Positions 23,813 through 30,422 of a DNA stretch of 64,000 nucleotides are shown in pieces. Made by a program: the position numbers and the translations under genes. Location of the stretch: the NCBI RefSeq assembly GCF_024171925.1, contig NZ_JAMTCO010000006.1, positions 124,001 through 188,000 of the forward strand, read 5' to 3'. The stretch comes from Actinokineospora diospyrosa (GTDB lineage: Bacteria > Actinomycetota > Actinomycetes > Mycobacteriales > Pseudonocardiaceae). The notes under the pieces were generated by a model. It saw nothing but the letters and a program-made list of their open reading frames with translations. It had not been told where the DNA came from and did not search any database. The first letter of the stretch is position 1, and every line of letters begins with the position of its first letter.

Positions 23813-23940
23813 TTTTCCCGCCTCTGACCTGTGGATTCCGGGTTCGCATCCGCCTTGGCACCCGCTTTGGGGCCCGAGGTGGTCCCGACTCTTACGGCCA
23901 GTGCGGCGGGATCGACCGCCGCGGTGCCGAGGAGGCGGAC

Positions 23941-24063
23941 GTGGGAGAACAGCAGGCGGTCCAGACGACGGACACCGCGCAGCAGGTGGGTCAGGTGCCC
24001 GTGCTCGACATCGGCCCGGTCGAACCTGGGTTGACCTTCTGCCCCCGCAACACCCAGGCCTGA
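23941..24063 (+). CDS. 40-aa peptide, candidate RiPP precursor for the adjacent ThiF-like enzyme
   Basis: GTG at 23941 is preceded by a perfect GAGGAGG five bases upstream, the strongest ribosome site in this region. The 40-residue product is polar at the N-terminus (Gln/Thr-rich), has VPVLDIGPVEPG in the middle and ends LTFCPRNTQA. The stop is 15 bases before the ThiF-like ATG, which has its own GGAGGAC. The middle resembles the leader motif of FxLD-type lanthipeptide precursors (L-D-V/I-x-x-V-E), though the first aromatic residue is absent. One Cys, two Thr/Ser-type residues and a C-terminal Asn-Thr-Gln-Ala are potential modification sites. The longer open frame upstream (from 23776) lacks a ribosome site. 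The role is inferred from position, ribosome site and the partner's domain content. Confidence 0.6.
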   Translation: MGEQQAVQTTDTAQQVGQVPVLDIGPVEPGLTFCPRNTQA

Positions 24064-24078
24064 GCCGGAGGACAGCCG

Positions 24079-25155
24079 ATGCGACCCAAGGTCAAGATCG
24101 AACACCGGCCGGTCCGGTACGGCACGGACCTCGTGCACCTCGGCGGGATGGCCGCCGTCGCCGACCCCGCGGGGTGGGTGTGGGCGTTGCTGGAGTTGCT
24201 GGACGGCACGCGCACGGTCGGCGAGGTTGCCGCTGAGCTCGCCCGCCAGTTTCCGGACCGACCCGCGAGCGCGGTGCGGGCGGCGATAAGTGAACTGTGG
24301 GCCCGTGGCCACCTGCTCGACGCGGACGCACCGGCCCCGCCGGAGCTCTCGGTGGGCGAGGTGGAGCGGTACAAGGCAGGGGTGTCGTTCGCCGACTGGG
24401 CGGACAACCGGCCGCGCGCCAGCCGGTGGGCGACTCAACTGCTGCTCAAGCAGGCGCGGGTCGCGGTGATCGGTGTCGGCGGTGTCGGCAGCATGGCCGC
24501 CTGGGCGCTGGCGGTCTCGGGGGTCGGGCACCTGCATTGCGTCGACCACGACGTGGTGGAGCTGTCCAACCTCAACCGGCAGGCGCTCTACACCGAGTCG
24601 GACCTCGGGCGGCCGAAGGTCGAGGTCATCGTGGAGCGGCTGCGTGCCCGCAACTCCGACATCGAGGTGAGCGGCGAGTTCCGCCGGGTCGACGGTCCGG
24701 CGGCGGTGCGCGCGCTGGCCGTGCGCTCCGACGTCCTGCTGCTGGCCGCGGACACGCCTGGGGAGATCGCCGGCTGGGTGGACCGGGTGTGCGCGGAGAC
24801 GGGGACCGCTTGGGTGCGTGGCGGGTACCACGGTCCCCAGCTCAGCATCGGTGTCTTCCGGCCGGGCGCGGGGCCGTGCCACAACTGCCTCCACGCCGAG
24901 CAGGACGCCCGGCAAGCCGCCGCTGCCGAGACGCCGTGGTCGCCCGGCGTCGGGATCCCGGCGCCGCACTCGGCCAACGCGATCAGCACGGGCATCACCG
25001 GGCTCATGGCGGCGGAGGCGGTGCAGGCCCTCATCACCGGTGTTCCCGCGATCCGGACGAACTGCCACTACGGTCACAACCTCCTCGGGGGCTGGGATGT
25101 TCGGGGACTCGACGCGCCAAGTCCGCACTGCCCTAACCGTCATCCGCGGCCTTGA
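24079..25155 (+). CDS. ThiF/E1-like adenylyltransferase with N-terminal peptide-binding (RRE-like) region
   Basis: 358 residues. Residues ~1-95 look like a PqqD/RRE-type winged helix (VWALLELLDGTRTVGEVAAE), which in RiPP enzymes grips the precursor leader. The E1 domain follows: VAVIGVGGVGSMAAWAL (ATP-binding loop, about residue 131), VDHDVVELSNLNRQALY with the catalytic Asp/Arg, and DLGRPKVEV with the conserved Lys. One CxxC pair is present (PCHNC, ~269) and the second zinc pair is reduced to Cys-His-type residues near the C-terminus. Relatives adenylate peptide C-termini or backbones (MccB in microcin C, cyclodehydratase E1 halves, ThiF/MoeB). The peptide gene 15 bases upstream makes a RiPP or peptide-nucleotide product plausible. 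It overlaps the convergent NB-ARC gene by 23 bases. Confidence 0.85.
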   Translation: MRPKVKIEHRPVRYGTDLVHLGGMAAVADPAGWVWALLELLDGTRTVGEVAAELARQFPDRPASAVRAAISELWARGHLLDADAPAPPELSVGEVERYKAGVSFADWADNRPRASRWATQLLLKQARVAVIGVGGVGSMAAWALAVSGVGHLHCVDHDVVELSNLNRQALYTESDLGRPKVEVIVERLRARNSDIEVSGEFRRVDGPAAVRALAVRSDVLLLAADTPGEIAGWVDRVCAETGTAWVRGGYHGPQLSIGVFRPGAGPCHNCLHAEQDARQAAAAETPWSPGVGIPAPHSANAISTGITGLMAAEAVQALITGVPAIRTNCHYGHNLLGGWDVRGLDAPSPHCPNRHPRP

Positions 25156-27208
25156 GGTGGTCGTGCAGGCTCGGGCGCGGCGCATCGAACGCGAGGAGGA
25201 TGTCCGCCGCCTCGCTGAAGCAGCGCACGGCTTCGTCGCGGTGGTGCAAGTGGTAGTGCAAGCGGGTCATGGTCATCAGGACCTCCGCCAGCTCTTGGTC
25301 CCACCCGGCGCTGACGCGGTAGCAGGCCTCTACTTCCCGGCACAGGTCGAGCGCGCGCTGGTGGTCACCAAGCCCCTGCAGGGCGACCGCGATGTTGTGC
25401 CGCGCGTGCGCCACTCCCGGTGGGGACCCGAGGGCGAGTCGGAACGCGAGCTCGTGCTCGGCGTGGTCGAGGGCTTCCGCGTGTCTGCCGAGCTTGGTGG
25501 TGATCACGCTGAGGTTGGCGTGCACGGCTGCTTCGACCGAGCCGCCGCGGACATCGCGCAGCAGTGGCAGGGCTTGGCGGTAGTAGGGCTCGGCGTCCGC
25601 ATGCCGTTCCTGGAGTACCGCTGTGCGTCCGAGCGCGCACAGTGCCTCGCCGCGCAGGATGGTGTCGCCGACACGCTCGGCCAGCGCGTAGGCGTCGCGG
25701 TGGTCGGTGTCGGACTTGACCCAGGACTCCATTTGCTGGTGGGTGTCGCCGCGCCGGATGCGGAAGGTGATCTCGAATGTGGTCGCACCGCAGGCTTGTG
25801 CCGCGGCGATGCCTGCCGTTTCCGCCTCCGCGCGCACGCGCAGGGTCGCGCGTGGTCGGGTGGCCAGGAACCGCATCGCTCCGGCGATCGCCATGGTGAG
25901 CGGGTGTGCTTCGAGCTGCTCGGTGAGCCGCAAGGCGGCCTGCAGGGTGGTGAGCTCGGTGCTCAACCAGGTCAAGGCTTCCGCCCGGTCCCGCACGACA
26001 GCGGGTTCGTCGACCTTCGCGAGATCGATCACGAGCGAAGCGTTGCCGGGGAACAACAACCGGTCGGCGGCGGTGGCGGTTCGGGCATACCGAGTGAGCA
26101 CGGCCATCGTGGCCGCACGTCGGTCCTCGGCGGTCTCGTCGCGTTCCGCGCACTGGGCGGCGTAGGCGTGCAGGAGGTCGTGCGCCTGGTACCGCTCGCG
26201 GCCCGACGGCTCGACAAGGTGAAGATCGGACAGCGCCACCAGGTGCCGGGTCGCTTGTGTGGAGCCGAGTCCGGTGAGAGCGGCCACGGCCAGGACGCTG
26301 AACTCGGTGCCCGGGTGCAGGCCCAGCCTGCGGAAGGTCCGCGCGAGCGGCGGGGCGAGCGAGGTGTAGGACCACTCGAAGATGGTCCGGATCTCGCTGC
26401 TGCCGTCGCTGAGCCCGTTCACCGCGCCCGGGTCAGCGGTGATCTCGGCGATGACGTCCGCGACCCGCAGGTCCGGCCGGACCGCCAGGTGGGTCGCGGC
26501 GACCCGCAGGGCGAGCGGTAACCGCGCGCACGCCCGAACCAGGTCGCGCGGCTCGATGTCGCGCGCCCCGACGATCCCGCGGACGAACGCGGTGGACTCG
26601 TCGTCGGTGAGCAGCCCCAACGGGATCCGGTGCGCGGCTTCGGTGATCACCAGCCCGGTCATGGCCCGTCTGCTGGTCACCACCGCCAGCGACCCGGGCG
26701 CCGCCGGGAGCAGAGGCCGGACCTGTTCGGGGCTCACCGCGTTGTCCAACAGGACCAGCACCCGCCGCCCGGACAGCATTGAGCGGTACAAGGTGGTCTG
26801 GGTGTCCAGATCGGCCGGGATCCGCTCTTCCGCGATCCCCAACGCATAGAGGAATGAGGAGAGCACGAGGCCGGGCGCGAGTGGAGCGCTAGGACCGTGA
26901 CCGCGCAGATTGGCGAACAGCGTCCCATCGGGGAATCGGTCTTGTACCCGGTGCGCCCACCGCACGACCAGGGTCGTCTTGCCGACCCCCGCGGTCCCGT
27001 CGACTGCCGCCACAGTCGCGCTTGGGCTGTCCAATAGCGCGTCCAGTGTGGCCAATTCCCGCGCCCTGCCGACGAAATCCCGCACTCCGGCGGGGGATTG
27101 GCGGGGCAACGGCACGGTGTCCGGCCGTCCGATCACGACCTGGTTGATCGTGGTCGCCTGCACCACCGAACCCGTCACGCCACCGGCGACCTCGTTGCGC
27201 GCACCCAC
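25133..27208 (-). CDS. NB-ARC ATPase with TPR domain (AfsR-like, no SARP domain)
   Basis: 691 residues from GTG 27208. The start is chosen because the family typically begins with a short V-x-G-x-V-x-G-x-V-V-Q-A stretch, present here as VTGSVVQATTINQ, and the upstream open frame is Arg/Pro-rich. Walker A DGTAGVGKTTLVV (~residue 70-78), Walker B RRVLVLLDNAV and a GLPLA-like ARLPLALRVAA motif define the NB-ARC module. Residues ~300-370 are the winged helix, and the C-terminal ~300 residues are TPR repeats (LGDHQRALDLCREVE). It lacks the DNA-binding domain of AfsR and so may signal through partners. Convergent with the ThiF gene. Confidence 0.88.
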   Translation of the reverse strand: MGARNEVAGGVTGSVVQATTINQVVIGRPDTVPLPRQSPAGVRDFVGRARELATLDALLDSPSATVAAVDGTAGVGKTTLVVRWAHRVQDRFPDGTLFANLRGHGPSAPLAPGLVLSSFLYALGIAEERIPADLDTQTTLYRSMLSGRRVLVLLDNAVSPEQVRPLLPAAPGSLAVVTSRRAMTGLVITEAAHRIPLGLLTDDESTAFVRGIVGARDIEPRDLVRACARLPLALRVAATHLAVRPDLRVADVIAEITADPGAVNGLSDGSSEIRTIFEWSYTSLAPPLARTFRRLGLHPGTEFSVLAVAALTGLGSTQATRHLVALSDLHLVEPSGRERYQAHDLLHAYAAQCAERDETAEDRRAATMAVLTRYARTATAADRLLFPGNASLVIDLAKVDEPAVVRDRAEALTWLSTELTTLQAALRLTEQLEAHPLTMAIAGAMRFLATRPRATLRVRAEAETAGIAAAQACGATTFEITFRIRRGDTHQQMESWVKSDTDHRDAYALAERVGDTILRGEALCALGRTAVLQERHADAEPYYRQALPLLRDVRGGSVEAAVHANLSVITTKLGRHAEALDHAEHELAFRLALGSPPGVAHARHNIAVALQGLGDHQRALDLCREVEACYRVSAGWDQELAEVLMTMTRLHYHLHHRDEAVRCFSEAADILLAFDAPRPSLHDHLKAADDG

Positions 27209-27545
27209 GGGCCCAGTCTCGTGCCACAACCGGGACGTGAGCCCGCCCGGTGCTCGTCCACCACCCGGTCGGCGGAAGGAAAGCACGCCATGGGGGAGTG
27301 GGCGATACCGGCGGTAGTTGTCGTGGTGCCACGCCCTGTCCACTTTCTGTCCGTTCTGGGCGGCCCACGTCCAGTCGGTGGGGACGGGCTGCCGACGGTG
27401 GAAATCTGTTTCGTGAAACCGGCTCTGACCTGCGGGTCGGTTTCGGGAAAATGTCGTAACAGGGACGCGGAACAGAACACTTCAACCGTGTTGGGCTTGC
27501 CGACTAATTTCCGGATTCCAAGCTCCACACGAAGAGGAGTAAGCA
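27209..27545. other. Divergent promoter region of the NB-ARC and protease genes
   Basis: About 340 bases. The right half is AT-richer and contains GTTTCGTGAAAC (27408-27419) and a related GGTTTCGGGAAAA shortly after, possibly operator half-sites. AAGAGGAG about 10 bases before the protease ATG is its ribosome site. No coding potential. Confidence 0.5.
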
Positions 27546-30422
27546 ATGCCCTGCAAATCGAAAACGTTACTGGCGGCCGCCATGGCGCTGGTCGCGGTCG
27601 CCGCGGCGGTGGTGATCACGCCAACGGCCTTCGCCGGTGAACCCGAGGGTTCGGTCCGGGTGGCCGCCAAGAACCCCGTCCCGGGGGTGTACTTGGTCAA
27701 GCTCAAGGACTACGCGGGCGCCGCGTCCTCGACCAGCCGCGCGCAAGCGCTGACCGACCAGTACGGCGGCACCGCGACCCACACGCTCGACCGGGTCATG
27801 CGCGGGTACGTCGCGGAGAACCTCGACGAGCGGGCCGCCCGCCGCCTCGCGGCCAACCCCGAGGTCGAGTCGGTCACCCAGTCCGGCACCTCGCACGCCG
27901 CCGAGACCCAGACCAACCCGGTCAACTGGGGGCTCGACCGCGTCGACCAGCGCGACCTGCCGCTGGACAAGAAGTACACCTACTCCGACACCGCGGGCGC
28001 GGGCGTCAACGTCTACATCGTCGACACCGGCATCCGCTACACGCACACGGAGTTCGAGGGCCGCGCGAAGTTCGCCGCGGACTTCGTGCAGCCGCCCACC
28101 AACGGCAACGACTGCGACTCGGCCAAGGCCGGGCACGGCACGCACGTGGCGGGCATCGTCGGCGGCAAGACCCGCGGCGTGGCCAAGAAGGCGAACCTGT
28201 TCGCCGTGCGCATCCTGGGCTGCCAGTCCTCCGGCAAGGACACCGACATCGTCGTCGCGGCCGAGTGGTTGGCCAAGAACGCGGTGAAGCCCGCGGTGGC
28301 GAACATGAGCGTCTACGCCGACGACCCGACCATCGGCGTGGACGCCATCAAGGGGTCCATCGCCGCGGGTGTCCAATGGGGACTGATCACCGGCAACAAC
28401 GGCGGCAACTCCTGCGACTACGGCCCGGGCAGCCGGGTCGACACCGGCGTGCGGACCGGCAACTCGACCTCGTCGGACCAGCGCGCGGGTGACTCCAACG
28501 ACGGCGCCTGCATGGACGTGTTCGCGCCGGGCAGCAACATCGACTCGTCGATCAACTCCTCGGACACCGCCTACGGGCAGAAGTCCGGCACCTCCATGGC
28601 CGCCCCGCACGTGACCGGCGCGCTGGCGCTGCGGTTGGCCGAGGCGCCGTCCTCGACGCCCGCGGACCTGAAGAAGTGGATCGTCGACAACGCCACGACC
28701 GGCAAGATGACCAACATCCGCGCGGGCACGCCCAACCGGCTGCTGTACATCCCGAGCGCGCCGCCGTCGACCAACGACTTCTCCATCGCGGCGAACCCGG
28801 CGTCGGTCAACGCCAACCCGGGCGCCTCGGCGACCAGCACCATCGCCACCACGGTCGTGCGCGGCTCGTCGCAGAGCGTCGCCCTGTCCGCGAGCGGCCT
28901 GCCCTCGGGCGTCACCGCGGCGTTCGACCCGACCTCGGTGACCGCGGGCAACTCGTCGAAGCTGACCCTCTCGGTGTCCTCCAGCGCGACCCCGGGCACC
29001 TACAAGGTCACCGTGACCGGTAAGAGCACCGACGCCACCCACACCGCCGACGTGAGTCTGACGGTCAACGGGACTGTTCCCAACGACTTCAGCCTCGGCG
29101 CCAGCCCGAGCAGCGGTTCCGTCGCGGCCGGGTCCTCGGCGTCGACGACCATCAGCGCGAACGCGGTTCGCAGCGCACGCAACGACGGCCTCACCGACGG
29201 CACGTCCGGCACCGCATCGGGTCCCGGCGTGATCAACGGGTCGCCGACCACGGTCGCCAAGTACCCGTTCATCATCTCGCAACACCGCACCGGGGGCGTC
29301 CGGCCGCAGGAGCAGTCCTGCACCGGCTCGGTCGTGGCGAAGCGGGCCGTGCTGATCGCGGCGCACTGCAAGTTCTCCCAGGGCGACCCGAAGTACCTGG
29401 TGTACGGGCGTGACGACCTCAACGCCACCAACACCGGCACCCGCGTCGAGATCGAGGAGTACCGCACCCACCCGAGCTACGACGCCAACGACGGCTGGCG
29501 CACCGGCTTCGACGTGGCGGTCATCTTCACCAAGTCCGACATCCCGGTCCCGGCGGGCTACCAGTTCCCGTCGATCGCCAAGTCCGGCGACAGCCTGCCG
29601 CTGGGCAGCAAGGGTACCGCGATCGGCTACGGCAAGACCGACGCCAACGACGCCAACAAGAACGCGCTGCTGCGCGAGACCGTGCTGCCGACGGTGGCGG
29701 ACCAGAACTGCGCGAACATCAACTCGCAGTTCGACGCCCGCTACATGTTCTGCGACGGCTTCGGCAACGGCAGCACCGGCCTGTGCCAGGGCGACTCCGG
29801 TGGCCCGTACTTCCTCAACGGCAAGATCTGGGGCGTGTTCTCCTGGCTGCGCACCGACTGCGCGTCCTACAACGCCCACGGCAAGCTGTGGGGCGTCATG
29901 GGCGACTGGGCCAACGCGCAGATCGGCGACACCCCGAACCCGCCGACCGGCGACATCGCCCTCTCGGCCAGCGGGCTGCCCTCGGGCGCGACGGCGTCGT
30001 TCAACCCGACCACGATCGGCGCGGGTGGCACCTCCACCCTCACGGTCAGCACCTCCGCGTCCACGGCCGCCGGTGAGTACCGGATCACGGTCAGCGGCAC
30101 GCGGTCCGGGGTCACCCGCACCACGGTGTACACCCTGACGGTCACCGGCGGCGGCAACACCCCGCTCACCGTGACCAACCCCAACGCGCAGACCAGCGTC
30201 AAGGGGAAGCCGGTCAGCCTGCAGATCAACGCCAGCGGCGGCAAGGGCGGCAACCGCTTCACCGCCACCGGGCTGCCCGCGGGCTTGAGCATCAACGCCA
30301 GCACCGGGTTGATCACCGGCTCACCGACCACCTGGGCGAACTACCACCCGACGGTGACGGTGACCGACAGCTCCGGCGCCAAGGCGAGCGCCACGTTCTA
30401 CTGGTTCGTCTTCCAGTACTAG
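27546..30422 (+). CDS. Secreted double protease: subtilase (S8) with a trypsin-like (S1) domain nested in an Ig-like repeat
   Basis: 958 residues. Signal peptide (~1-31), I9-type propeptide (~35-115), S8 domain (~125-395) with catalytic Asp160 (IVDTG), His197 (GHGTHVAG) and Ser350 (GTSMAAPH). A first Ig-like repeat follows (~400-515: NDFSIAANPASV...SLTVNG). The second Ig-like repeat starts identically (NDFSLGASPSSG, ~517), is interrupted after Val-Arg-Ser near residue 542, and resumes near 803 with IALSASGLPSGATASFNPTT, matching the first repeat's ALSASGLPSGVTAAFDPTS. The 260 inserted residues are a complete trypsin domain: His607 (IAAHC), Asp656 (DVAV), Ser751 (GDSGGP). A C-terminal putative Ig/cadherin-like domain closes the protein. 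All six catalytic residues are intact. A hairpin terminator follows. Confidence 0.93.
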   Translation: MPCKSKTLLAAAMALVAVAAAVVITPTAFAGEPEGSVRVAAKNPVPGVYLVKLKDYAGAASSTSRAQALTDQYGGTATHTLDRVMRGYVAENLDERAARRLAANPEVESVTQSGTSHAAETQTNPVNWGLDRVDQRDLPLDKKYTYSDTAGAGVNVYIVDTGIRYTHTEFEGRAKFAADFVQPPTNGNDCDSAKAGHGTHVAGIVGGKTRGVAKKANLFAVRILGCQSSGKDTDIVVAAEWLAKNAVKPAVANMSVYADDPTIGVDAIKGSIAAGVQWGLITGNNGGNSCDYGPGSRVDTGVRTGNSTSSDQRAGDSNDGACMDVFAPGSNIDSSINSSDTAYGQKSGTSMAAPHVTGALALRLAEAPSSTPADLKKWIVDNATTGKMTNIRAGTPNRLLYIPSAPPSTNDFSIAANPASVNANPGASATSTIATTVVRGSSQSVALSASGLPSGVTAAFDPTSVTAGNSSKLTLSVSSSATPGTYKVTVTGKSTDATHTADVSLTVNGTVPNDFSLGASPSSGSVAAGSSASTTISANAVRSARNDGLTDGTSGTASGPGVINGSPTTVAKYPFIISQHRTGGVRPQEQSCTGSVVAKRAVLIAAHCKFSQGDPKYLVYGRDDLNATNTGTRVEIEEYRTHPSYDANDGWRTGFDVAVIFTKSDIPVPAGYQFPSIAKSGDSLPLGSKGTAIGYGKTDANDANKNALLRETVLPTVADQNCANINSQFDARYMFCDGFGNGSTGLCQGDSGGPYFLNGKIWGVFSWLRTDCASYNAHGKLWGVMGDWANAQIGDTPNPPTGDIALSASGLPSGATASFNPTTIGAGGTSTLTVSTSASTAAGEYRITVSGTRSGVTRTTVYTLTVTGGGNTPLTVTNPNAQTSVKGKPVSLQINASGGKGGNRFTATGLPAGLSINASTGLITGSPTTWANYHPTVTVTDSSGAKASATFYWFVFQY

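Follow-up and report, generated by a model that had tools for sequence, protein, structure and literature searches.

A 64,000-nucleotide stretch of the Actinokineospora diospyrosa genome (contig NZ_JAMTCO010000006.1, positions 124001-188000; hereafter the window, from a genome of 8.1 Mb) carries a short open reading frame (ORF) directly ahead of a gene for a ThiF-like adenylating enzyme, which is followed by a convergent gene for an NB-ARC-TPR protein of the NLR-like kind. This arrangement raises the question whether the short ORF is the precursor gene of a ribosomally synthesized and post-translationally modified peptide (RiPP), what the enzyme would do to its product, and whether the NB-ARC-TPR protein belongs to the same system. 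We find that precursor and enzyme nearly certainly make up a RiPP-type unit, as the sequence-only reading of this DNA had proposed. We also put at slightly under one half (roughly 0.48) the probability that the three genes form a signalling module, in which the enzyme, a fusion of a RiPP recognition element (RRE) with an E1-like domain, would turn the peptide into a macrocyclic ligand for an NLR-like sensor. The observations that carry this reading are the conservation of the peptide, its signature of Cys or Ser together with a small C-terminal residue, the class and active-site residues of the enzyme, and the co-inheritance of peptide, enzyme, and sensor.

A conserved precursor family ahead of the ThiF gene

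Relatives were compared in up to 20 kb of DNA around 60 matches to the enzyme and 40 more from the genus of genome G467, some of them on shorter contigs. In a tree of 97 enzymes the window sits in a clade of 35 loci, all from its own family, with a support of 98 in the quick tree and of 100/98 in a careful tree with three outside rows. Three loci gave no ThiF reading and are in no tree (L049 and L055, in which no start was found, and L095, under 90 bits); two others, L138 and L160, fall outside the 97-row tree by its length limits and are nevertheless counted among the 43 related loci outside the clade.

The sequence-only reading had pointed to a short gene with a textbook ribosome site 15 bases ahead of the ThiF gene and had named, as a test, the conservation of such a frame beside orthologous ThiF genes. 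Both points hold up: in the window an AGGAGG site precedes the peptide gene, whose stop lies 15 bp from the ThiF start (Table 1), and a short ORF is found just 5′ of ThiF at all 35 clade loci, its stop falling anywhere from 45 bp before to 11 bp inside the ThiF start used. As delimited, the peptides are 19 to 24 aa long, except in L056 (34 aa) and in the window (40 aa). They share a leader pattern of I, L, or V, mostly E, and then F or I (I-x-[F/I]), and at an aligned place downstream of it 34 of the 35 carry either a single Cys (21 peptides) or a Ser (13 peptides with no Cys, in which the Ser after F/Y was taken as the residue). This Cys/Ser stands 11 to 16 residues past the first leader-motif residue (12 in 21 of 34), is immediately preceded by F or Y in 27 of 34, and opens a C-terminal segment of 5 to 9 residues; none of the 35 peptides has more than one Cys. 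The C-terminal residue is small throughout (G 12, S 10, A 7, N 6), compared with 34% G, S, A, or N at the end of 1152 mechanical ORFs over 300 aa. In the window, both the leader (VLDIGPVE) and the C-terminal core had been placed correctly by the earlier reading.

The 35 peptides were picked by hand from ORF candidates and then matched to the DNA without constraining the first residue; a mechanical start rule ranked another frame first in L043, L063, and L066 and offered no candidate of its length in L048. L048 and L064 have no start codon with a ribosome site at the residue where the peptide was cut, and in L048 an ATG lies 56 codons ahead of the peptide stop. A strict form of the peptide motif occurs just before the start at 22 of 35 clade loci versus 7 of 1712 control ORF starts in the same DNA, and a relaxed form, defined after the peptides had been seen, at 35 of 35 versus 35 of 1712. 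The nonsynonymous difference (pN) is smaller than the synonymous one (pS) in 12 of 14 hand-picked and in part overlapping peptide pairs, with L068/L074 and L045/L075 equal at two decimals, and the amino acid signature is retained while the DNA differs.

Table 1. Features of the module and of its upstream neighbour, in window coordinates
Feature	Coordinates	Strand	Basis and remarks
Precursor peptide, VGEQQAVQTTDTAQQVGQVPVLDIGPVEPGLTFCPRNTQA, 40 aa	23941..24063	+	GTG start, TGA stop; ORF reading, pattern in 35/35 clade loci
AGGAGG Shine-Dalgarno site of peptide gene, 5 nt ahead of GTG	23930..23935	+	Sequence
Leader segment LDIGPVE, aligns with IEFxEIE of relatives	24004..24024	+	Alignment, leader-RRE correlation; would dock on the RRE
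Predicted core C-P-R-N-T-Q-A, Cys34 to C-terminal Ala	24040..24060	+	Predicted 7-residue thiolactone
RRE-ThiF/E1-like adenylating enzyme, 358 aa	24079..25155	+	ATG start; Pfam, NCBIfam, profile, Foldseek
GGAGG Shine-Dalgarno site of ThiF gene	24067..24071	+	Sequence
N-terminal RRE (PqqD/PaaA-like) domain, about aa 3-81 (model residues 49-127)	24085..24321	+	Pfam, NCBIfam, model, profile match
Adenylation domain, aa 119-351: G132/G134/G135/G137, R167, K180, D225	24433..25131	+	Pfam, alignment
Zinc-type four-Cys set: Cys 267, 270, 351; fourth position Arg354 in window enzyme			Putative zinc site
NB-ARC-TPR (NLR-like) protein, open frame 736 aa, convergent	25133..27343	-	Pfam, tree of NB-ARC-type proteins
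Segment GGVTGSVVQATTINQVVI near sensor N-terminus	27131..27184	-	Pattern match; presumably RHIM/BASS3-like, by eye, no profile hit
Divergent upstream regulator, 1421 aa	19547..23812	-	BTAD 39.1 bits, Trans_reg_C 25.4 (cut-off 26.2), nSTAND1, WD40; no module member

Between the divergent regulator and the peptide start (23813-23945), the window is predicted to fold tightly as RNA (z -2.8, with 1 of 200 shuffles as good). Scans for promoters and terminators found none, and Rfam gave no match at gathering score.

An RRE-ThiF enzyme with conserved active-site residues

Pfam recognizes the ThiF domain of the enzyme (PF00899, 2.7e-41, aa 119-351). The PqqD-type leader-binding domain that had been proposed for its N-terminus is borne out by profile and model: a profile of 33 relatives, compared with solved structures, matched PaaA best (4.7e-46, from profile position 2 on), with MccB at about 5e-44, and an AlphaFold2 (AF2) model, computed from 8 sequences on the in-frame peptide-enzyme reading, has confident RRE and E1 parts (mean pLDDT 70.6 overall). 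Foldseek with this model listed 24 MccB chains first and PaaA from rank 25 (TM-score 0.54-0.60 by query length, rmsd about 6, about 295-361 alignment columns for the 404-residue query). Because the Pfam scores of the RRE stay below cut-off, the RRE call rests on the PaaA profile match and the confident N-terminal domain of the model; the NCBIfam PqqD match (1.6e-5) likewise reaches 24.7 bits versus a cut-off of 46. By these measures the window enzyme is an RRE fused to a ThiF/E1 adenylation domain.

For EnfB, Arg167 and Lys180 have been named as residues for ATP and Asp225 for Mg (PMC12250964). R167, K180, and D225 of the clade enzymes can, by motif context and as residues of the same kind and number, be equated with these; K180 and D225 are kept in 35 of 35 and R167 in 34 of 35. 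Residue 354, the fourth position of the zinc-type set, is Cys in 33 of the 35 clade members, Arg in one (the window), and Ser in one.

Exchange of Cys and Ser points to a probable (thio)lactone ring

On the ThiF tree the Cys/Ser state changes 10 times, with at least 5 changes forced by starred branches, and it clusters no more strongly than shuffled labels do (shuffle mean 10.6); within the sister pairs L068/L072 and L039/L044 the two residues are swapped. ThiF-like RiPP enzymes adenylate a carboxylate, which is then attacked by differing nucleophiles, giving a Glu-Cys thiolactone with GrcB, a link from an upstream Trp to the C-terminal Ile with IndF, and attack by a backbone amide with EnfB (PMC12150305, PMC12250964); for MccB, the substrate is the C-terminal Asn of a heptapeptide (PMC12250964). 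Three features of the clade, namely the interchangeable nucleophiles Cys and Ser, the small residue at the peptide end, and a C-terminus-activating enzyme class, make a side-chain-to-tail (thio)lactone the likely product as judged from the sequences. The earlier suggestion that the enzyme adenylates the C-terminus as MccB does thus survives in part: activation is the likely first step, but an MccB-like end product is not what the peptides suggest, 6 of 35 ending in Asn and the window's in Ala.

An orthologous NB-ARC-TPR gene is inherited with the pair

The sequence-only reading saw a solitary peptide/ThiF pair between two STAND regulators. The pair is not solitary: the next gene after ThiF encodes an NB-ARC-TPR protein at 28 of the 35 clade loci (27 adjacent, L067 behind a transposase-like ORF), convergent with ThiF in 26 and on the same strand in L067 and L071. 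The downstream flanking protein is thereby an orthologous partner, and the upstream one keeps its place outside the module (see below). In the window the 3′ end of the sensor gene overlaps the ThiF gene by 23 bp, and its true start may lie about 40 codons inside the frame, judged against L056. The other seven loci form one ThiF subclade and have an XRE-type protein next (six by clustering, L069 by eye), for which Pfam confirmed HTH and DUF5753 in L074.

A tree of 54 NB-ARC-type proteins unites the 28 sensors in one group (support 100), and the sensors diverge in step with ThiF (Mantel r 0.786 between the two sets of distances, n=28; none of 9999 permutations reached this value). A sensor profile was run on 76 genomes, 29 with the clade and 47 without. 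All 25 matches that reach 820 bits lie beside a clade ThiF gene (one behind an insertion), and the best match in the 47 genomes without clade ThiF has 786 bits. Of the 7 sensors outside the profile, five score 824-984 bits, one 779, and one, a broken copy, 572. The window genome holds 31 matches at 1e-20, some of them fragments, its own sensor scoring 987 bits and the next match 589. Because the sensor gene is mostly co-inherited with peptide and enzyme, the peptide, once ringed, may serve as the dedicated signal for this sensor, and a role as its ligand is plausible.

All 7 sensors scanned match NB-ARC and TPR, and no DNA-binding domain was found in them. Near the N-terminus, 21 of the 28 meet a GxVxGxVVQAGTIxQVVL-like pattern, a segment which, by eye and with no library match, we take to resemble the RHIM/BASS3 amyloid signalling segments. 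Outside the sensors, among ORFs of at least 90 aa in the DNA fetched for the 35 loci, the pattern recurs only in a + strand ORF that lies over the L065 sensor gene. The sensor of L036 (L036:6647-9490) does not match it and carries an N-terminal PNP_UDP_1 domain (5.6e-21), which fits an output position. The transposase-like ORF of L067, recognized by eye, lies between the ThiF and NB-ARC-TPR genes; in L071, a close relative, these two genes are direct neighbours.

Possible co-divergence of peptide and sensor

Should the leader act through the RRE and the core through the TPR part, each of these pairs would be expected to diverge together. Excluding L038 (no Cys/Ser by the rule used) and L045 (broken sensor frame), the partial Mantel correlation between core and TPR, with ThiF and NB-ARC held, was 0.31 (p 0.0006, n=26) and that between leader and RRE 0.23 (p 0.03, n=26), and four cross pairs were not significant (n=26; core-RRE 0.02, core-E1 -0.10, leader-TPR 0.09, core-NB-ARC 0.11). 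Under other distances and borders the core-TPR value ranged from 0.22 to 0.30. As a link between peptide and sensor, this sequence-level co-divergence is suggestive only. It is tempting to speculate that an actinobacterial NLR-like receptor has here its own gene-encoded ligand, a macrocyclic C-terminal Cys/Ser (thio)lactone produced by a dedicated RRE-E1 enzyme, core and TPR co-diverging as in self-recognition or kin signalling; we regard this more specific version as possible and distinctly tentative.

Proposed mechanism and points against it

In the signalling module that we favour, the leader strand LDIGPVE would dock the 40-aa precursor on the RRE of the ThiF enzyme, and the E1-like domain, with ATP and Mg, would adenylate the C-terminal carboxylate of the peptide. 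The side chain of the lone Cys (replaced by Ser in relatives), the seventh residue counted back from the C-terminus, would then attack the acyl-AMP and close a thiolactone (or lactone). Autoinducing peptides have rings of this kind, but here a cytosolic RRE-E1 enzyme would form it. The ringed C-terminal piece, cut free by a protease encoded elsewhere, would bind the TPR end of the sensor and thereby switch its nucleotide-driven NB-ARC-TPR assembly, with the output at the N-terminus (RHIM-like mostly, PNP_UDP in one relative). Enzyme class and Cys/Ser exchange argue strongly for docking, adenylation, and ring closure as the probable steps; our confidence that the ringed peptide would switch the sensor is moderate to weak.

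To our knowledge, the ligands of bacterial NLR-like NB-ARC-TPR proteins are largely unknown, and a peptide-enzyme pair inherited with one orthologous sensor group offers a concrete candidate ligand that could be made in a tube. If the proposal is true, it would join E1-like enzymes, autoinducer-type (thio)lactone peptides, and NLR-type sensing, a combination not found in the literature searched, and would give actinomycetes a route of signalling by peptides. Precursors missed by gene callers can moreover be sought with a simple rule, the Cys/Ser signature.

Several observations weigh against the module. Seven of the 35 clade loci have no sensor, the L038 peptide shows no Cys or Ser under the rule applied, and no exporter or protease common to the loci was seen in the protein clustering of 43 of them. 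The N-terminus of the enzyme scores below threshold in Pfam (21.6 bits for PaaA-like_N, cut-off 27; 21.4 for PqqD, cut-off 23.4), and docking of the leader on the RRE, sought in the AF2 model from 8 sequences, was not found there, the peptide lying undocked with pLDDT under 50. The sensor's restriction to clade loci was read from 76 genomes, the 47 without the clade picked by hand, with a profile built from 21 of the 28 sensors and an 820-bit line set after the list had been seen, and the next match below that line (803 bits) is not ThiF-adjacent and comes from a genome with the clade. The core-TPR correlation falls when close relatives are pruned, to 0.20 (p 0.009, n=22), 0.16 (p 0.046, n=20), and 0.12 (p 0.19, n=13). 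When the sensor was scanned in sliding windows with only ThiF held, parts of the NB-ARC region showed core correlations of 0.20-0.24 and sensor aa 340-460 leader correlations of 0.32-0.39, neither of which is predicted by a simple leader/RRE and core/TPR pairing. Partial Mantel tests are known to err on the liberal side when rows are related, and the values given here come from a series of such tests.

Alternative explanations

The alternative that survives best keeps the same genes and the link to the sensor and changes the chemistry: the C-terminus would be modified through a backbone amide or an outside amine (as in EnfB), as a thioester or thioacid, or with a nucleotide (as in MccB), and the Cys/Ser would serve binding. 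ThiF-like enzymes do employ differing nucleophiles after the same first step, L038 lacks Cys and Ser at the place, and 6 of 35 peptides end in Asn, like MccA. Yet the other 29 have no terminal Asn, and 10 free Cys/Ser exchanges at a site spaced from the leader strand by 11-16 residues (by 12 in 21 of 34) are what would be expected of a nucleophile; we regard another modification as a minority possibility.

A secreted antimicrobial or Trojan-horse RiPP, with the flanking regulators merely controlling its expression, would suit the closest solved enzymes, MccB and PaaA, which make antibiotics, and the upstream regulator of the window, which is of the SARP type, a class found in antibiotic and RiPP clusters (PMC12224297). 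The loci themselves speak for something else: beyond ThiF, NB-ARC-type, and XRE proteins, no protein cluster occurs in more than 5 of the 43 loci clustered (ORFs of at least 90 aa; no profile search for exporter or immunity genes was made), the upstream regulators are of mixed kinds, and the co-inherited NB-ARC-TPR protein has no DNA-binding domain in the 7 members scanned. We consider this explanation unlikely.

Clearly more remote is a defence unit for cell suicide or against phages, in which the NLR-like protein would guard the peptide/ThiF pair or be restrained by its product and would fire upon disturbance by a phage. The NB-ARC domain with a RHIM-like N-terminus, or with PNP_UDP in L036, does resemble NLR cell-death receptors (PMC7889193), and the distribution is patchy. 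However, PADLOC, run on 4 proteins, returned only partial or weak matches (E1-E2, TPR, one CARF, one mad8), neighbouring ORFs hold no second RHIM-like pattern save the one over the L065 sensor gene, and the XRE-type regulator that replaces the sensor in seven loci suggests transcription control. Finally, that the short ORF is a chance frame, or a leader-attenuator with no peptide product, is scarcely credible, since the 35 control starts with the relaxed motif and the tightly folded upstream RNA of the window are set against its presence at 35 of 35 loci, the strict motif at 22 of 35 versus 7 of 1712 starts, pN below pS in 12 of 14 pairs, and a signature retained despite DNA differences.

Comparison with known systems

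The sequence-only reading held that such a unit is not a described class. The group of precursor plus RRE-ThiF enzyme is described, with MccB, PaaA, GrcB, EnfB, and IndF as members; what stands is that our literature searches listed no report of the actinobacterial family or of its pairing with a sensor. No actinobacterial ThiF RiPP with an NB-ARC-TPR partner was reported among the papers listed, from a largely open-access literature, and Streptomyces does not occur in the main text of the review PMC12250964. As far as searched, the enzyme group is thus known, and the peptide family, its Cys/Ser signature, and the inherited NLR-like pairing are new.

Among solved structures the best profile match is PaaA, which, like the window enzyme, has RRE and E1-like domain in one chain, and its substrate PaaP also comes from a short precursor gene. 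Pantocin A is a bicycle formed from a Glu-Glu-Asn core; the window core CPRNTQA has no such motif, and among the 35 peptides it is seen, by eye, in L064 only. MccB of the microcin C system, the top Foldseek match, adenylates a peptide C-terminus as is proposed here, but its substrate is a heptapeptide ending in Asn, and the shortest clade peptide has 19 aa.

The Firmicutes enzymes GrcB, IndF, and EnfB share the RRE-ThiF architecture, a short precursor, and ATP-dependent macrocyclization; IndF and EnfB activate the C-terminal carboxylate, and the Arg167/Lys180/Asp225 set of EnfB recurs in the window enzyme (PMC12150305, PMC12250964). They differ in their bonds: with GrcB the bond runs from an internal Glu to a Cys at the C-terminus, whereas 0 of 35 clade peptides end in Cys, and IndF and EnfB use Trp and a backbone amide as nucleophiles, where Cys or Ser is predicted here. 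Their clusters contain transporters, peptidases, or radical SAM enzymes, in contrast to the NB-ARC-TPR or XRE-type gene found next to ThiF here; locus clustering recognized no shared cluster of GRC-type radical SAM genes (no radical SAM profile search was made).

With the autoinducing peptides of agr systems, the clade peptides would share a side-chain-to-C-terminus (thio)lactone formed by a single Cys or Ser. In agr systems AgrB closes the ring and a membrane kinase acts as the sensor, roles that would here fall to an E1-like enzyme of the cytosol and to an NLR-like protein; neither AgrB nor AgrC was among the few neighbours scanned (no agr-directed profile search was made). RRNPP proteins are TPR receptors with an N-terminal HTH domain in most members, unlike the 7 sensors scanned, which combine NB-ARC with TPR and gave no HTH match. 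The FxSxx-COOH and HaaA cyclophane systems (NCBIfam NF040586 and NF041717) also couple a RiPP to a TPR partner, to which the window sensor matches in part, at 69 and 226 bits, far below the cut-offs of 300 and 1125; these systems use radical SAM enzymes. The best NCBIfam match of the window sensor is AfsR (326 bits versus a cut-off of 1430).

Bacterial amyloid signalling (BASS) systems resemble the module in their NB-ARC-type receptors and, by eye, in the RHIM-like N-terminal segment of 21 of 28 sensors (PMC8086366, PMC12261475, PMC7889193). A classical BASS effector pair was rejected: no neighbouring effector among ORFs of at least 90 aa in the fetched DNA has the pattern, save the one ORF over a sensor gene. 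In S. thermophilus, about half of the Rgg regulator loci also have ThiF or radical SAM genes nearby (PMC12445099).

Other neighbours, sister clades, and distribution

The upstream regulators were considered as module members and rejected: placing the 11 that are NB-ARC-type on the tree takes 5 changes, with six grouping together, and the window's own differs in type from these, which counts against membership. Downstream of the window sensor, 27546-30422 encodes a 958-aa protein with subtilisin (S8), trypsin, and He_PIG domains; the nearest relative, L056, has a member of this protein cluster next.

Some match occurs in 296 of 297 genomes of the same family, mostly partial. At 1e-50, 7 of 16 genomes of the window's genus match, five of which carry the window's clade, and 40 of 392 in the genus of G467 match at this threshold; at 1e-60, the phylum gave 2 of 396, the window's own included. 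L035, 45% identical, was the sole relative from a scan of genome contigs. The phages searched gave no match to the enzyme, and viral contigs gave 12 loci with weak or partial E1 relatives.

An M50-like gene directly follows ThiF at 33 of the 43 related loci outside the clade versus 0 of 35 inside it (fetched DNA; tblastn at 1e-6 with three query proteins, each with HExxH), and of the ten outside loci without it, L142 and L149 sit on short contigs. Pfam M50 is above cut-off in L186 and below it in L035 and L185. The window's clade thus seems to have the sensor in place of its sisters' protease. Plasmid records of Streptomyces, Nocardia, and Actinacidiphila label the enzyme only as ThiF family adenylyltransferase, and in the Nocardia record the next gene is a site-2 protease family protein. 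The start of the sister-clade M50-like gene looks PqqD-like by eye.

That every relative has a window-type peptide was rejected: outside the clade another precursor motif, IEIRxLDxxET, occurs at 25 of 43 loci, on the opposite strand in 15, in a search made after the motif had been seen and with no control. The sister clades (L133 to L172, and L035) have precursor-like short ORFs reading IEIRxLDxxETT..., often on the opposite strand. In L133 two neighbouring short ORFs with this motif lie 2444 and 2567 bp past the ThiF start, beyond the M50-like gene, and in both of them two Cys follow the last Met that precedes the motif.

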